A DNA stretch of 32,750 nucleotides from Syntrophaceae bacterium. Lineage in GTDB: Bacteria; Desulfobacterota; Desulfomonilia; Desulfomonilales; Desulfomonilaceae. Position 1 is the first letter of the stretch. Each line of letters starts with the position of its first letter. The translations under genes and the position numbers were made by a program. The notes under the pieces are model-generated. The model was not told the origin of the DNA, did no database searches, and was given only the letters and a program-made list of their open reading frames with translations. Shown here piece by piece: positions 19,315 to 26,215 of this stretch. Location: positions 1 through 32,750 of the forward strand of contig JARLHM010000140.1 of the NCBI GenBank assembly GCA_031292235.1, given 5' to 3'.

Positions 19315-20637
19315 ATGGCTGGAACAACATTCGCTAAAGGCGGGATTCATCCCGAGGAACACAAGGAGTTAACAGAACACTTGGCAATTGAAGAAATGCC
19401 GCCTCCCAGTCAGGTGGTTTTGCCATTGTCAATGCACTTTGGGGCTATCGCTCAACCGATTGTCAAAAAGAAACAGGAAGTCCAAGAAGGCGAGGTAATC
19501 GCCGTAGTCGAGAAGGCCCTTGGCGCTTCGATTCACAGCAGCGTAACTGGAGTTGTAAAAGCTATCGAGCCGAGGCCTCATCCGACCATGGTGAGGTGTG
19601 GCGCGATAATTATAGATCGTGATCCGTCGGCGCCGCCACGTCAATATTCGACTGAGGACTGGAAGAAGTTAAGCCGTGAGCAGCTACTCGCGAGAATAAA
19701 GGACGCTGGGATTGTCGGCATGGGAGGAGCGGGCTTCCCAACCCATGTCAAACTGTCACCGCCACCAAACGCCAAAGTGGACACGCTTGTGCTAAATGGA
19801 GCTGAATGTGAGCCGTATTTAACCACGGACCACAGGTTGATGCTTGAATATCCGGAGAAGGTTATTGAAGGAGCAAGAATTATTCTCAAGGTCCTGGGCA
19901 TCAAACAGTGTGTGATCGGCATCGAGTTGAACAAGGCTGATGCGATAAATGTCATGAACAAGGCTGCCGCTCAATCTTCTGAAAAGGATGACACAGTTGT
20001 ACGAATTCAAGGGATGCAAGTAAAATATCCCCAGGGTTCTGAAAAGCAACTGATCTATTCATTAACCAAAAGATCAGTTCCTGGCGGTGGGTTGCCCTTC
20101 GATGTTGGTGTGATTGTTCAGAACATATCGACAACCCTGGCAATATTTGAAGCATGTCTTATGCAAAAGCCTCTCTATGAAAAGGTGGCTACATTTTCTG
20201 GGAGAGCTTTGGACAGGCAGGCGAACTTGAAGGTGAAGGTCGGGACGCTTCTTTCAGATGTTGTCGAATATCTCGGTGGAACGAAGGACTTAGTAAAGAT
20301 AGTTTCTGGCGGCCCTATGATGGGGTTTGCAATTTCTTCGATTGACGTTCCGGTTACCAAGACCACGTCAGGTGTTCTTTTTCTGAACAGTTCCGAGACA
20401 GACCTTGGAGAATTTGGTCCATGCATTCATTGTGGTTGGTGCATGGAAGCCTGTCCAATGGGGCTGAGCCCCAAGGAAGTCGGTCTCTATGTCGAGGCCG
20501 GCAGAGGCCACTTGACTGAAAAATTCGGTATTTTTGATTGTTTTGAGTGTGGTTGCTGTGCTTACGTCTGTCCCGCCAAACGGCCTCTCGTGCAGTTTGC
20601 AAGACTAGCGAAAATAGCGATCAAAAAACGAGGGTGA
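19315..20637 (+). CDS. rnfC: RnfC, NADH-site and 4Fe-4S subunit of the Rnf complex
   Basis: Cytoplasmic peripheral subunit of the ion-translocating ferredoxin:NAD oxidoreductase; it carries the NADH/FMN site. The 440 residues begin with the family N-terminal hairpin domain (GGIHPEEHKE ... HFGAIAQPIV). The Nqo1-like domain follows, with GMGGAGFPTHVKL at about 135-147 and NGAECEPYLTTDHRLM near 161-176, and an SLBB region. Two ferredoxin motifs end the protein: C370, C373, C376, C380 and C409, C412, C415, C419, all intact. There is no long E. coli-type Ala/Lys tail. An AGAGGA ribosome site precedes the ATG. It opens a C-D-G-E-A-B cluster, with 178 bp before rnfD. Confidence 0.97.
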   Translation: MAGTTFAKGGIHPEEHKELTEHLAIEEMPPPSQVVLPLSMHFGAIAQPIVKKKQEVQEGEVIAVVEKALGASIHSSVTGVVKAIEPRPHPTMVRCGAIIIDRDPSAPPRQYSTEDWKKLSREQLLARIKDAGIVGMGGAGFPTHVKLSPPPNAKVDTLVLNGAECEPYLTTDHRLMLEYPEKVIEGARIILKVLGIKQCVIGIELNKADAINVMNKAAAQSSEKDDTVVRIQGMQVKYPQGSEKQLIYSLTKRSVPGGGLPFDVGVIVQNISTTLAIFEACLMQKPLYEKVATFSGRALDRQANLKVKVGTLLSDVVEYLGGTKDLVKIVSGGPMMGFAISSIDVPVTKTTSGVLFLNSSETDLGEFGPCIHCGWCMEACPMGLSPKEVGLYVEAGRGHLTEKFGIFDCFECGCCAYVCPAKRPLVQFARLAKIAIKKRG

Positions 20638-20815: not shown

Positions 20816-21859
20816 ATGATTCCTAAACCTGACTGGGCTGTTTCGGTATCCCCGCACATAAGGCAAGGTACCACTACGTCCCAGATCATGTGGACCGTGT
20901 CAGCAACATTAATGCCTGTGCTGATTCTGTCCATTTATAATTTCGGGTTCAGGAGCCTGATCATAACACTCATAAGTGTTCTTTCGTGTATGTTTGTAGA
21001 AGCCATATCGCAAAAAGCTTTGGGTCGCGCAGTGTCCGTCAAAGATGGAAGCGCAGTGCTTACCGGGATTTTGCTAGCGTTTGTTATACCGCCCGGTGTT
21101 CCTTACTATCTTCCATTGATAGGAGCGGTGGCCGCCATTTTCATAGCCAAAGAACTTATGGGTGGTCTGGGATACAACGTATGGAACCCTGCTCTCGTTG
21201 GAAGGGCCTTTCTACAGGCGTCCTTTCCGGTAGCTATTACCACTGCGTGGATAGCCCCTCAACAGTTGGCCAAGGGCGCATGGGACGTTTTTCTCAGCCC
21301 TGGAAGTGTCGACGCTATATCAACTGCGACCCCGCTGTCTGTTGTTAAGCAGTACGGAATAACCGCTCTAACACAGCAATTTGGGGGTTTAGACTCCATT
21401 TATTGGAATTTTTTCCTCGGGTTCAAACCGGGATGTATAGGCGAAACATCCGCTTTGCTGATTTTGCTTGGCGGTCTGTACTTAATGGCCCGAAAGATAA
21501 TCACTTGGCATATTCCAATGTCCACATTGGCCTCCGCGGCCCTCGTGGCCTGGATTTTCGGTGGTCAGACCTGGTTTAGCGGTAATCCATTAGTCCACGT
21601 GCTTTCCGGCGGACTGATGCTCGGGGCCTTTTATATGGCCACTGATTACGTGACATCACCTACATTAAAATCCGCACAACTTATATTTGGAGTCGGCGTA
21701 GGAGCTTTGACAGTCCTGATCAGGCTTAAGGGTGGGTATCCCGAAGGCGTTTGTTACGCTATACTGCTCATGAACTGTTTGACACCCGCAATGGACGAAT
21801 GGTTCCAACCCAGTCGGTTCGCTCCACCCAAAGCCGCTCCGGTTGCGGCTGCAAAATAG
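20816..21859 (+). CDS. rnfD: RnfD, flavinylated membrane subunit of the Rnf complex
   Basis: Integral membrane subunit that carries a covalently bound FMN. In 347 residues the N-terminal SPHIRQGTTTSQIMW and the NVWNPALVGRAF segment are typical, and many hydrophobic helices follow. The DAISTATPL motif at 166-174 places the flavin-bearing threonine at T172 by analogy with RnfD/NqrB. The C-terminal half contains MATDYVTSPTLKSAQLIFG and EGVCYAILLMNCLTPAMD, also conserved. The ATG at 20816 is the first standard start. A strong GGGAGG at 20778-20783 is placed for an in-frame ATC at 20792 instead, so the true start is uncertain by eight codons. rnfG follows after 24 bp. Confidence 0.95.
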   Translation: MIPKPDWAVSVSPHIRQGTTTSQIMWTVSATLMPVLILSIYNFGFRSLIITLISVLSCMFVEAISQKALGRAVSVKDGSAVLTGILLAFVIPPGVPYYLPLIGAVAAIFIAKELMGGLGYNVWNPALVGRAFLQASFPVAITTAWIAPQQLAKGAWDVFLSPGSVDAISTATPLSVVKQYGITALTQQFGGLDSIYWNFFLGFKPGCIGETSALLILLGGLYLMARKIITWHIPMSTLASAALVAWIFGGQTWFSGNPLVHVLSGGLMLGAFYMATDYVTSPTLKSAQLIFGVGVGALTVLIRLKGGYPEGVCYAILLMNCLTPAMDEWFQPSRFAPPKAAPVAAAK

Positions 21860-21883: not shown

Positions 21884-22792
21884 ATGAAAGAAATCTTCAA
21901 AATTACATTGAGTTTAACGGTGGTTTGCATAGTAGCTTCCTTGATACTCGGTTTTGTATATGCGAAGACAGAGCATGCGCGAAAACTAAATGATGAGCGG
22001 ATAGAGCAGCAAACGATCCAAAGTTTGCTTGGCTATGGCGTTGGCGCCAAGATCCCAAGCGACCTTAAAGTATACCCTGTTTATAGATACGTCATCACAA
22101 CTGAAAAAGGGGAAACTGTCCTGGGCTATGTTTTACCAATTAAAGACAACAAGGTAGCGCTTGCGGAAATGGACCTTTCCGGTAATCCCATAAAAGTTAT
22201 CCCCATCCCTGTCGAACTATCCGCTCTTGCCGATAAGGCCACTAGAGACGACGCTGTAAACGCTGCTCTGCCCAAAGGTTCAAAATCCATATACGCACAG
22301 ACTATCTTTGTTGCCGACCAGGGAGGCAAACGACTCGGCTATGTCGTCCCCGGAGTGACCCAGGGATTCAAGTCATTCATAAAACTAATGGTCTCCTTGA
22401 ACCCGGATTTCACAGTTACCGGTGTGGCCGTAACATCGGCGGAAGAGGACCCAGGTCTTGGGGCCGAGATTCAAAAGAGCTTCTTCAGAAATCAGTTTGT
22501 TGGAAAGACAATCGAATTACTCAAGAAACTCACCGTGGTAAAGGAGCCTCTGCCACCAAATTTCGCCGCCGCTCTCGATCCCGCCAAAGCTAAAGCGAAA
22601 GGATTGACACCTGAGCAGGTAAAGGAAATCAAAGAGAAACATTTGAAAGATAATATTTATGCCTTGACCGGCGCTACTATTTCAAGCAGAGCGATGACAA
22701 ACGGAGTTGTGAGCACGGTCAAGAAGTTCGTCTACCGTCTCGACAAATTGAACGAGGCTATCAAAAAAGAACAATTAAGCGTGGCGTTTTAG
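21884..22792 (+). CDS. rnfG: RnfG, periplasmic flavinylated subunit (enlarged)
   Basis: Membrane-anchored subunit whose soluble domain faces the periplasm and carries FMN bound to a threonine. One N-terminal helix (about 6-27) anchors the protein. The ApbE-type flavinylation motif TGATISS lies at 262-268, with T265 the expected attachment site. The segment IYAQTIFVADQGGKRLGYVV and the SAEEDPGLGAEIQ loop (E. coli family: E-T-P-G-L-G) are conserved. At 302 residues it is roughly 100 longer than the E. coli protein. The extra length lies in a stretch around 85-135 and in an Ala/Lys/Pro-rich stretch around 220-255 just before the flavin motif. AGAGG precedes the ATG; rnfE follows in 12 bp. Confidence 0.93.
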   Translation: MKEIFKITLSLTVVCIVASLILGFVYAKTEHARKLNDERIEQQTIQSLLGYGVGAKIPSDLKVYPVYRYVITTEKGETVLGYVLPIKDNKVALAEMDLSGNPIKVIPIPVELSALADKATRDDAVNAALPKGSKSIYAQTIFVADQGGKRLGYVVPGVTQGFKSFIKLMVSLNPDFTVTGVAVTSAEEDPGLGAEIQKSFFRNQFVGKTIELLKKLTVVKEPLPPNFAAALDPAKAKAKGLTPEQVKEIKEKHLKDNIYALTGATISSRAMTNGVVSTVKKFVYRLDKLNEAIKKEQLSVAF

Positions 22793-22804: not shown

Positions 22805-23425
22805 GTGAGCAGCAACCTCAAACTTATTTGGAATGGACTGATACCTGAAAACCCCATCTTCCGCCTTGCGCTAAGTATGTGCCCGGCGGTCGCGGTTACG
22901 ACCTCAGTTGAAAATGGATTGATGCTCGGGCTGGCCGTCGTATTTGTTCAGGTTTTTTCCAGTTGCACGGTATCAATATTCAAGTCTTTCATCCACCCCA
23001 GGATAAGAATCCCGGCCTATGTCATAGTCATAGCGCTATGGGTTACAGTTATCGACATGATTCTGCCGGTTATTTCCCCGGATGTTTACAAGAAGGTGGA
23101 ACTCTTCGTTAAATTGATAGTCGTTTTCGCTATCATCATTTCAAGATTGGAACTGTTCGCCTCAAAGGAACCCCTGATTCCTTCTTTCTTTGATGGGCTG
23201 GGAATGGGTTTCGGCTTTCTGTTCGGTTTGTGCCTGATCGGCGCTATACGGGAATTCTTTGGAACCGGCCAACTGTTCGGTTATGACATCTTGGGATTCA
23301 ATCCATTACTCATCATGGTATTACCAGCCGGTGGATTTTTCGTTATCGGATTCATAATGGCTATATTCAACTGGTTCGAATACAAGATTACGGGAAAAAT
23401 CCCCACATCGGGAGGGGCCCACTGA
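22805..23425 (+). CDS. rnfE: RnfE, membrane subunit with one expected cluster cysteine replaced
   Basis: Six-helix membrane subunit which, with RnfA, holds a [2Fe-2S] cluster inside the membrane. It starts at a GTG with GGAGG six bases upstream and has 206 residues. The first ligand, C26, is present in LSMCPAVAVTTSVENG. The second should lie in the strongly conserved N-C-x3-G-R-A-E-A-F-A-x-K segment, but here the ungapped match is LIVVFAIIISRLELFASK, with A109 at the cysteine position. The codons around 23120-23145 read through cleanly, so no frameshift explains it. Other cysteines, C54 and C143, lie in other helices. The remaining sequence (RIRIPAYVIVIA, GAIREFFGTG, LPAGGFFVIG) is typical. 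It is separated from rnfA by a single base. Confidence 0.95.
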   Translation: MSSNLKLIWNGLIPENPIFRLALSMCPAVAVTTSVENGLMLGLAVVFVQVFSSCTVSIFKSFIHPRIRIPAYVIVIALWVTVIDMILPVISPDVYKKVELFVKLIVVFAIIISRLELFASKEPLIPSFFDGLGMGFGFLFGLCLIGAIREFFGTGQLFGYDILGFNPLLIMVLPAGGFFVIGFIMAIFNWFEYKITGKIPTSGGAH

Positions 23426-23426
23426 C

Positions 23427-24389
23427 ATGAACGTAAAACAGTTCTCAAACGTGGCGTTGCTAATAGTTTTACCAATATTCCTGTTTCTGATGATCTTTCC
23501 GACCCTAGTCCACGCTGCTACAGGTTCTGGTTCATTTAAGAAAGACACGGAAATCCAGATTTCCTTTGGAGCGCCTGTGGACGAAACATGGGCGAATGAC
23601 CCTGCAAACTACAGAGTATTTCAGAAGACGGACCCGGATATTGAGATACCGGTAACCTCAATTACCCTAAGCCCCAGGAAAACAAGCGCAGTCCTGACAT
23701 TTGGGGAAGCGCTTAACCTATCGAGTGAGTACGAGGTTCAAGCCAAGAATGTCACATCCGACGGAAAAGTTTTGGGAAATGTGGAGTTTTTGGTAAAGAA
23801 AAGCGAAGGTCAAATCCTTTTCACAATATTTCTCGGGGCTATGTTGATAAACAACTTTGTTTTTACGAAATACCTCGGGCTATGTATCTTCTTTGGCGTC
23901 TCCCAGAAAAAGGAAACGGCCATAGGAATGGGGATAACCTTTACCATAGTCATGGTTCTCAGCGCTGTGATGTGCTGGGCCTTGCTCACTTTTGTTTTGC
24001 AGCCACTCCACTTAGGATTCTTGCAAATCATCGTGTTTATCGGCACTGTGGCTATTTTTGTGCAGGCTGTCGATACAATATTGAGAAAAGTCAATCCGTA
24101 TCTATTCAAGAAACTAGGTGTTTTCTTGGTCCTTATTGTCACGAACTGCATAATTCTGGCGGTTCCGTTGATAAACGCGGACAGTGGTAACGGGCCCTTT
24201 GAGAGCCTTACGTTGGGACTTGGCGCCGGACTCGGTTTTGCTCTAGCCCTATTCCTGATGTCATGTGTCCGAGAAAAACTGGAACTTTGTAGAGTGCCGG
24301 CGATGTTTAAGGGTTTACCCATAGCGTTCGTCGTGGCGGGGGTCTTTGCGCTTTCATTTTTAGGATTTTCAGGGTTTTCAATTTTCTGA
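23427..24389 (+). CDS. rnfA: RnfA with an N-terminal signal sequence and Ig-like domain
   Basis: Membrane subunit that pairs with RnfE. The last ~193 residues (128-320) are a complete canonical RnfA: six helices, cluster cysteines C153 (KYLGLCIFFGVSQKKETA) and C241 (LIVTNCIILAVPL), and the GFSGF end. Ahead of them are 126 extra residues. Residues 1-30 look like a signal peptide (Lys, a hydrophobic core, then LVHA-AT as a cleavage-like site). Residues about 35-125 resemble bacterial Ig-like SbsA/Big_5 domains (ISFGAPVDETWANDPANYRV ... LTFGEALNLSSEYEV). The ATG has GGGAGGGG upstream and follows rnfE by one base. No ATG lies near the core start; a TTG at 23790 with GGAG could give an unfused form. 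RnfA homologues have the N-terminus outside, so an external domain fits. Confidence 0.93.
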   Translation: MNVKQFSNVALLIVLPIFLFLMIFPTLVHAATGSGSFKKDTEIQISFGAPVDETWANDPANYRVFQKTDPDIEIPVTSITLSPRKTSAVLTFGEALNLSSEYEVQAKNVTSDGKVLGNVEFLVKKSEGQILFTIFLGAMLINNFVFTKYLGLCIFFGVSQKKETAIGMGITFTIVMVLSAVMCWALLTFVLQPLHLGFLQIIVFIGTVAIFVQAVDTILRKVNPYLFKKLGVFLVLIVTNCIILAVPLINADSGNGPFESLTLGLGAGLGFALALFLMSCVREKLELCRVPAMFKGLPIAFVVAGVFALSFLGFSGFSIF

Positions 24390-24445: not shown

Positions 24446-25369
24446 ATGGAAGATGTTTGGCATATAGCCACTATGGGAATAATATTTTTTGCGGTGTTCG
24501 GCGCCTTATGCGGATTAATTCTAGCTTTGGCGGCCAAGAAGTTCGCTGTAAAAGTCAACCCAAAAATCGAAGCAGTCCGTGCCTGCCTACCAGGGGCAAA
24601 TTGTGGAGCGTGTGGGTTTGCCGGCTGTGAATCCTATGCGGAAGCTGTTGTAACAGACCCCAGTTGTCCAACAAACAAATGCGCTCCAGGCAAACAAACC
24701 GTTGCCGAAAAGGTGGCGGCGATTACTGGAAAGGCCGCCGGGGCTGCGAGCCCAATAATCTCGGTCCTTCGTTGCTCCAGAAATGAGGGCGAGGTAAAGA
24801 AGAAATATTCCTATGTTGGTTTCGACACATGTCAGGGAGCGGCGATAGCCTTCGGTGGACCATATGAGTGTAATTTTGCTTGCATCGGCTATGGTGACTG
24901 TGAGGCTGCTTGCCCGTTTCATGCCATACACATGAAAGACAATATGCCGGCCATAGACCCTGAATTGTGCACCGGTTGTGGCGTTTGTATAAAAACCTGT
25001 CCAAAACAGGTGCTCGAACTCATGCCAAAGGACGCTCTGTGCTACGTTCCTTGCAACAGCAGAGACTCGGGGAAAGCGGTCACCAACGTTTGCAAAGCCG
25101 GATGTATCCACTGCGGCGCGTGTACCCGTAAGGCTAAAGATATAGTTACAATGGTCAATGACCGTATCGAAATCGACCACGAAAAATGCGATGAAGATTG
25201 CACAAAGGCAGGAGTTTGGGCATGTAGCAAACAATTCATTTTCAGATACACTGACATGGAGCGTCAGGTCAGAGCCGTAGAACAGATAAAGTCTGAACAA
25301 GCGGCCAAGAAGGCCGCGGCGGCCAAATCACAACAGCAGTCCGAAGCAAAAACTTCCGACAATGCTTGA
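24446..25369 (+). CDS. rnfB: RnfB, multi-cluster ferredoxin subunit with a degenerate C-terminal motif pair
   Basis: Entry point for electrons from reduced ferredoxin. An N-terminal helix (about 8-30) anchors it. The Fe4S domain has C47, C53, C56, C61 in CLPGANCGACGFAGC. The first ferredoxin pair is complete: C142, C146, C152, C156 and C175, C178, C181, C185. A second pair is expected, but the first member ends C220, C223, C226 followed by TRKAKD instead of a fourth Cys-Pro, and the next region keeps only C248, C252 and C260. By ferredoxin ligand swapping, one cluster could still form and the other is probably lost. The tail from about 285 is Ala/Lys/Gln-rich. GAGGTG precedes the ATG. It closes the rnf cluster, at 307 residues. 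Confidence 0.95.
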   Translation: MEDVWHIATMGIIFFAVFGALCGLILALAAKKFAVKVNPKIEAVRACLPGANCGACGFAGCESYAEAVVTDPSCPTNKCAPGKQTVAEKVAAITGKAAGAASPIISVLRCSRNEGEVKKKYSYVGFDTCQGAAIAFGGPYECNFACIGYGDCEAACPFHAIHMKDNMPAIDPELCTGCGVCIKTCPKQVLELMPKDALCYVPCNSRDSGKAVTNVCKAGCIHCGACTRKAKDIVTMVNDRIEIDHEKCDEDCTKAGVWACSKQFIFRYTDMERQVRAVEQIKSEQAAKKAAAAKSQQQSEAKTSDNA

Positions 25370-25501: not shown

Positions 25502-26215
25502 ATGAAAGACAAAAATTACGTTTGGAACCCACTTCGTTTGTTGAGCCCAATGCTCAACTCCGAAATCGGAAAACTTGACGAAGCCGTTGACATTCCGGTA
25601 GACGCTTCAAAGTCCCCAGATGAAATACTGGTTATCATGTTTGGTAAACTCATAGAATTGACTAAAATGATATCCGTCGGCTTTAAGAGTGAAAGTGATT
25701 CAAAAGCTGATTTATGTGAAAGACTGATTGTGGAAATTGAGCAATTGGAATTAGTTTCGACATCTGAGCTTGTCAAGGGTTCCGAGACCTTTGGGCAAAA
25801 CCTTTTCAGGACAGTAGTTAGACTTCCAAGCCGTGTAGAACGAATCGCCGTGATGTTCGAACACATATTGAAATGCCTGAAGATCAAGATACGGGAAGGA
25901 ATTCTTTTCAGCGATAAAGCCCTGGCCGAACTTGACGAACTGTTCACGGTTACGGCTGAACTATTAAAGAACCTTCGTGATTCGCTCTTGACCTGTAACA
26001 GCGTTATTCTTGATCATATCAAGGCGCAAAGCGCAAAAGTATCCGAACTTGCTGAAGAAGCAAGATTCAACCACTGGGAACGCTTGGAAAAGGGCTTTTG
26101 TTCGCCCAACGCCTCCACAATCTACCTGAAGATCCTTGATTCTTTTAAACAGGTAGCTGAATATTCTATGAAGATAACAAATTCAATATGTTCATTAGAG
26201 GACGTATCCAGCTAG
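25502..26215 (+). CDS. PhoU-like helical protein
   Basis: A 237-residue, mostly helical soluble protein. The C-terminal part reads ARFNHWERLEKGFCSPNASTIYLKILDSFKQVAEYSMKIT, which follows the pattern of PhoU domains (a His/Arg-Leu stretch, a Gly, then a Tyr-Leu-x-Ile-Leu helix with Asp and a final Ala-x-x-Ile-x-x helix). The N-terminal half (about 45-150) could be a second, more divergent three-helix repeat. In other bacteria PhoU-like domains regulate phosphate uptake or occur as C-terminal domains of Na/phosphate cotransporters. No transporter gene is adjacent. It has its own GGGAGG ribosome site, lies 132 bp after rnfB on the same strand, and ends before two hairpins. The family call is by pattern recognition only. 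Confidence 0.6.
   Translation: MKDKNYVWNPLRLLSPMLNSEIGKLDEAVDIPVDASKSPDEILVIMFGKLIELTKMISVGFKSESDSKADLCERLIVEIEQLELVSTSELVKGSETFGQNLFRTVVRLPSRVERIAVMFEHILKCLKIKIREGILFSDKALAELDELFTVTAELLKNLRDSLLTCNSVILDHIKAQSAKVSELAEEARFNHWERLEKGFCSPNASTIYLKILDSFKQVAEYSMKITNSICSLEDVSS

Follow-up and report, generated by a model that had tools for sequence, protein, structure and literature searches.

The rnf operon described here raised a simple question: why does its RnfA, a membrane subunit of ~190 residues in the Rnf complexes of A. woodii and C. tetanomorphum, have 320 residues? The 32,750-nt stretch of DNA that we analysed (hereafter the window) was found by Pfam and NCBIfam profile searches to hold a complete rnfCDGEAB operon with all six genes (Table 1). 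An earlier note, made from the sequence, had read this RnfA as a full-length RnfA led by a signal peptide and an Ig-like domain, had taken the fusion to be the natural product, and had suggested that the added domain might dock a partner such as a cytochrome or stabilise the enlarged RnfG.

Table 1. Features of the rnf operon and of the fused rnfA in the window
Feature	Position	Strand	Evidence or remark
rnfC	19315..20637	+	TIGR01945, E 6.5e-150; canonical, both 4Fe-4S motifs, eight cluster Cys
rnfD	20816..21859	+	TIGR01946, E 4.2e-99; clade-conserved Cys58 and Cys313
rnfG, enlarged, 302 aa	21884..22792	+	TIGR01947, E 5.2e-23; AlphaFold pLDDT 93.7
RnfG residues 44-118, periplasmic stretch	22013..22237	+	largely missing from 14 aligned unfused RnfG
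rnfE, one cluster cysteine short	22805..23425	+	NF009070, E 1.2e-62; alignments
RnfE Cys26 codon, cluster ligand kept	22880..22882	+	alignments
RnfE Ala109 codon GCT	23129..23131	+	aligns without gaps to 7zc6_E and 9eri_E, where C. tetanomorphum has Cys109 and A. woodii has Cys108
rnfA ribosome-binding site GGGAGGGG	23410..23417	+	sequence
rnfA, fused form, 320 aa	23427..24389	+	ORF and profile searches
RnfA signal peptide, residues 1-30 (LVHA-AT)	23427..23516	+	sequence; N-termini of 85 homologues
RnfA Ig-like (Big_5/SbsC-type) domain, residues 31-126	23517..23804	+	Pfam, AlphaFold, Foldseek, dN/dS
RnfA D-P-D-I motif, residues 69-72	23631..23642	+	P70, D71, I72 invariant in 85 homologues
RnfA membrane core	23805..24386	+	Rnf-Nqr 132-317; cluster cysteines C153 and C241 kept
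rnfB	24446..25369	+	profile match; Cys53 is first Cys of FdI cluster motif

The Pfam Rnf-Nqr match covered RnfA residues 132-317 (E-value 5.5e-50) and left residues 1-126 as extra sequence, so that the protein runs from a signal peptide (1-30) through a beta domain of ~95 residues to a complete RnfA. Its ATG lies one base past the rnfE stop codon (23423-23425), with GGGAGGGG nine bases 5' of it, as the earlier note had described. When the N-terminus was scanned alone, residues 31-108 matched Big_5 (PF13205) with an E-value of 0.013, and the window protein scored 14-17 bits against a cut-off of 23.6; among 85 RnfA homologues there were 41 Big_5 matches at E≤1, the best at 2.2e-6. An AlphaFold model made with the 85 homologues placed about 7-8 beta strands in residues 34-123 at a moderate pLDDT of about 70-78 (mean for the whole RnfA model only moderate, 68.6), and Foldseek searches with the model returned the Ig domains of the S-layer proteins SbsC and Sap (~1e-6) and the CopC-like 2c9r and YcnJ (1.9e-4 and 6.2e-4). 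Assignment of residues 31-126 to an Ig-like beta-sandwich is thus supported at the level of fold, at moderate model confidence; the predicted structure bore out the earlier reading, while the Pfam score in the window fell short. The domain shares fold and sequence pattern with Big_5/SbsC-type domains, but unlike those of SbsC and Sap it occurs once, is joined to a multi-pass membrane subunit of a respiratory complex and carries a PDI motif of its own, which is invariant. The CopC-like proteins have a similar beta-sandwich, whereas the RnfA domain lacks a conserved metal-binding His/Met/Cys set. We found no paralogue of the domain elsewhere in the genome at E≤10.

The extra region behaves as translated protein. 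For close pairs, dN/dS across residues 31-126 was 0.08-0.22, which indicates purifying selection, and the reading frame upstream of the core was the same in all homologues. In addition to the PDI triplet, residues F37, D69, L90, L96, N97, V123 and K125 were nearly invariant. No internal start near the core was conserved among the 85 sequences; the TTG of the window (codon 122, 23790) was start-like in 8 of them. The fusion is therefore confirmed as real, neither chance nor an effect of annotation, in agreement with what had been claimed for it. D. multivorans had been a candidate source of proteomic proof for the fusion; we dropped it, since its Rnf1 could not be shown to be of the fused type. 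In L075 (550-2289; G552:C158) a single open frame of 580 residues, which no stop codon interrupts, spans both RnfE and the fused RnfA, suggesting either a polyprotein of the order RnfE-signal-Ig-RnfA or an in-frame start that overlaps.

The signal peptide is variable in sequence among the 85 homologues, yet it has been kept. In most of them, including relatives in Desulfomonile and Desulfobulbus, it ends in an AxA site of the kind used by signal peptidase I; in about 20 of the 85, all from Desulfobacteria, it ends in a lipobox (LTGC, LMAGC, LGGC and similar), so these proteins are predicted lipoproteins. The window protein has no lipobox. Two classes of processing signal at one site argue strongly for a periplasmic domain and would be hard to account for if the N-terminus were not exported; from these signals we infer that the domain is exported and processed. 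RnfA and RnfE are an inverted pair in which the N-terminus of RnfA is periplasmic (PMC12174285, citing Saaf 1999), and K32 of A. woodii RnfA, just past TM1, has a cytosolic role (PMC11889175); the external location proposed in the earlier note fits this topology.

Searches for the fusion, which the earlier note had proposed across Desulfobacterota, recovered it widely. Each of the 18 family genomes, the window's own and those of 17 relatives, carried it, as did at least 80 GTDB loci and more than 100 loci overall; a scan of 84,980 species genomes placed it in three broad groups of Desulfobacterota (Desulfomonilaceae, Desulfobacteria and Desulfobulbia), isolates included. In a phylum-wide sample of 394 genomes RnfA was matched in 142, with a fused form in 15 of those, and in the class of genome G382 (160 genomes) the respective counts were 96 and 57. 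Several complete genomes had one fused copy together with one or two unfused copies. In a phylogeny built on the RnfA core common to fused and unfused proteins, the fused ones formed one clade (support 99/96, and 100% of 200 bootstrap trees), showing a single origin. The fused architecture is old, conserved and lineage-wide. The unfused sister of this clade (support 100/100) was L184, a single 4-kb contig of a metagenome-assembled genome that might be a contaminant, and a search of its order found no further members of this unfused lineage.

The fused operons also differ at one ligand position of the intramembrane cluster, a cysteine regarded as invariant in Rnf and Nqr. In characterized complexes the [2Fe-2S] ligands of RnfA/E are Cys25 and Cys113 of RnfA with Cys26 and Cys109, or Cys25 and Cys108, of RnfE (PMC9588780, PMC11889175). 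In the fused type the RnfE motif V-x-N-C has become V-x-F-A, so the Asn next to Cys109 has been replaced as well. Position 109 was Ala in 94 of 94 fused operons and Cys in 27 of 27 remaining RnfE, the comparison set being the Desulfobacterota phylum plus solved structures only; these counts came from a separate alignment, as one of our subunit comparisons had typed loci by the RnfE motif itself, which made its RnfE columns circular. Six more rows of the alignment had Ala, namely L184 and five loci of the fused type in which RnfA was cut short, broken or without a label. An ungapped alignment showed Cys at this RnfE/NqrD position in the four solved sequences (7zc6, 9eri, 7xk3 and 8ahx). RnfA Cys153 and Cys241 and RnfE Cys26 are kept, i.e., three of the usual four, and the fused type thus lacks the four-cysteine set of the canonical Rnf intramembrane [2Fe-2S] site. 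We found no conserved cysteine in the aligned RnfE that might replace Cys109; another residue could serve, and no candidate was identified. With three of four cysteines left, the iron centre probably differs in its coordination and has been retuned; altered cluster chemistry in fused-type Rnf is likewise probable. L184 has the RnfE Ala and neither the Ig fusion nor the RnfG extension, so the loss of the cysteine was probably the earliest of these changes. A separate feature of RnfE is His64 (22994-22996), found in the fused clade and in L184 where other RnfE have Pro; in A. woodii an R67-E115 ion pair has been proposed for Na+ entry, the Arg being three residues past the His64 position, and His64 might bear on ion specificity.

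The third difference is in RnfG, which was 296-304 residues long wherever a fused operon had the complete subunit and ~185-230 residues in unfused operons. When 14 unfused RnfG were aligned, they lacked residues 222-252 of the window protein and largely lacked residues 44-118, and the extension was present in none of the unfused operons examined. In the model of the window RnfG, which is of high confidence, a long TM helix is followed by an extra beta domain (residues ~61-130), and the FMN domain comes last. Given this strict pairing, RnfG is the likeliest partner of the Ig domain, which is probably a periplasmic dock for it. Covariation in 69 sequences was less telling: after correction for variability the Ig-RnfG signal exceeded that between the Ig domain and the RnfG FMN domain or between the RnfG extension and RnfD, and the signal between the Ig domain and the RnfG extension was slightly higher than for most pairs of segments, yet it stayed short of that for known contacts and did not surpass the signal-peptide controls. 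Of the two partners that the earlier note had put forward, the enlarged RnfG gained support from the strict length pairing, and the cytochrome was not supported.

In known Rnf the electron arrives on the periplasmic side at the RnfA/RnfE interface, and RnfG swings between there and RnfD (PMC12174285, PMC11889175). An exported domain on the N-terminus of RnfA would be placed right at this interface. Our preferred reading, to which we give a probability of roughly 55%, is that the operon encodes an Rnf subtype of its own, whose electron step from RnfA/E to RnfG has been rebuilt; Ig-RnfG docking and the altered cluster would both be part of that step. RnfA would be made with a Sec signal that is cleaved, or lipidated in the Desulfobacteria relatives, so that the mature protein would begin with the Ig-like domain on the periplasmic face and continue into TM1 of a normal RnfA. 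The Ig domain would bind the extra beta domain of RnfG, and this contact may hold or steer the flavin domain of RnfG above the outward RnfA/E opening, where RnfG would take the electron before passing it to RnfD. Replacement of RnfE Cys109 and its neighbouring Asn by Phe-Ala would retune the iron centre. This change in RnfE points to a rebuilding of the entire electron step, of which the periplasmic Ig-RnfG module would be a part. A more specific form, which we offer tentatively, would make the centre a three-Cys site in place of the four-Cys [2Fe-2S] cluster (e.g., one that has a different type of cluster or a fourth ligand that can exchange). The Ig-RnfG contact would then act as a periplasmic clamp that enables transfer, and in one branch the RnfB domain feeding the centre would have a selenocysteine ligand.

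Three other roles for the domain appear less probable to us. The best of them, though still unlikely, is that signal peptide and Ig domain serve biogenesis, i.e., Sec or lipoprotein routing, N-out orientation and assembly, with no role in turnover. Retention of a variable signal sequence would fit this, as would the N-out topology that RnfA requires (PMC12174285), but unfused RnfA inserts N-out with no such domain, and the invariant PDI motif, the purifying selection and the strict pairing with enlarged RnfG all speak against it. Slightly less likely still is docking of a redox protein of the periplasm, for instance a tetrahaem cytochrome c3, through which Rnf would exchange electrons with that compartment. 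The domain is on the right side of the membrane, near RnfG, and a multihaem ORF lies near the operon in L058-L060, L108 and L043; yet an ORF with at least three haem motifs was found in the flanks of only 5 of ~88 fused loci, and the Ig domain has no conserved Cys across the 85 homologues, its conserved His102 being Tyr in the window lineage. We found no conserved partner gene or cytochrome in the rnf neighbourhood, where shadow ORFs made up most of the clusters of neighbouring genes. The small ORFs of L058, L059 and L060, with 3-4 CXXCH motifs, resemble a local cytochrome c3 association in this sub-branch. We consider it improbable that the domain ties Rnf to the cell envelope, be it to peptidoglycan or to some other envelope protein, in the manner of surface-protein Ig modules: its top fold matches are S-layer Ig domains, but behind them is a very common fold, the domain is single, short and close to the membrane, and the RnfG pairing would be left unexplained. 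Finally, an artefact in which an internal start yields normal RnfA and the upstream region is untranslated or a relic could draw on the in-frame TTG and the sub-threshold Pfam score, and was rejected given the dN/dS and the lack of a conserved internal start, with the kept frame and good ribosome site also against it.

The rebuilt subtype that we favour belongs to Rnf (ferredoxin:NAD+ oxidoreductase) by homology and operon content, and we classify it as a variant rather than canonical Rnf; it looks like an uncharacterised version of Rnf and not a new kind of system. It shares its six subunits with the complexes of A. woodii and C. tetanomorphum (9eri and 7zc6), along with the flavin, RnfC and RnfB motifs, including the covalent-FMN threonine motifs TGATISS in RnfG (where T262 and T265 are invariant in the alignment) and STATPLS in RnfD, and the RnfA cores are closely similar (phmmer 3e-46 and 2e-47). 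The differences are that RnfA in those two species has no exported domain, their RnfG chains are shorter (187-207 residues) and their RnfE has Cys108/109 in place of the Ala of the fused clade (PMC9588780, PMC11889175). A second Rnf type in the same phylum, the Rnf2 of Desulfobacula/Desulfococcus with RnfB of ~700 residues (PMC5109826), is often found alongside the fused type within one genome (L150-L153) and differs from it in having unfused RnfA, short RnfG and RnfE with the Cys.

Our literature search found no description of RnfA with an Ig domain or an N-terminal extension, or of RnfE without the cysteine, in line with the earlier note, whose author was not aware of such an architecture in characterised Rnf complexes. 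The route of electrons and of Na+ or H+ across RnfA/RnfE is debated, and current models assume that the cluster has four invariant cysteines and that RnfG is mobile. A lineage that has naturally lost one of these cysteines and gained a periplasmic module on both RnfA and RnfG therefore offers a ready way to test which of these features are essential. The fusion also marks an Rnf subtype that occurs in many sulfate reducers and related bacteria, among them the isolates Desulfofustis glycolicus and Desulfobulbus elongatus.

Other observations concern the remaining genes. At the position of RnfB Cys53 (24602-24604 in the window), 19 related loci have an in-frame TGA. It was seen as GAQ-TGA-GGCGF in the fused-type Desulfobacteria operons L044, L047, L048, L050-L057, L061, L112, L113, L115, L116 and L199-L202, and their close relatives L049 and L058-L060 have Cys instead. 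A tRNA-Sec was found in all six related genomes tested, and in a SECIS search the region behind the TGA had a weak fold without compensatory changes. The codon appears to stand for a selenocysteine that serves as ligand of a [4Fe-4S] cluster; the table of a 2016 survey included RnfC and did not include RnfB (PMC5029168). Directly 3' of rnfB is an ORF of 237 residues (25502-26215) without a Pfam or NCBIfam match. RnfD has two membrane cysteines that set the fused clade apart: Cys58 (20987-20989), present in 76 of 76 clade members vs. 4 of 17 other RnfD, and Cys313 (21752-21754), present in 74 of 76 vs. 0 of 17.
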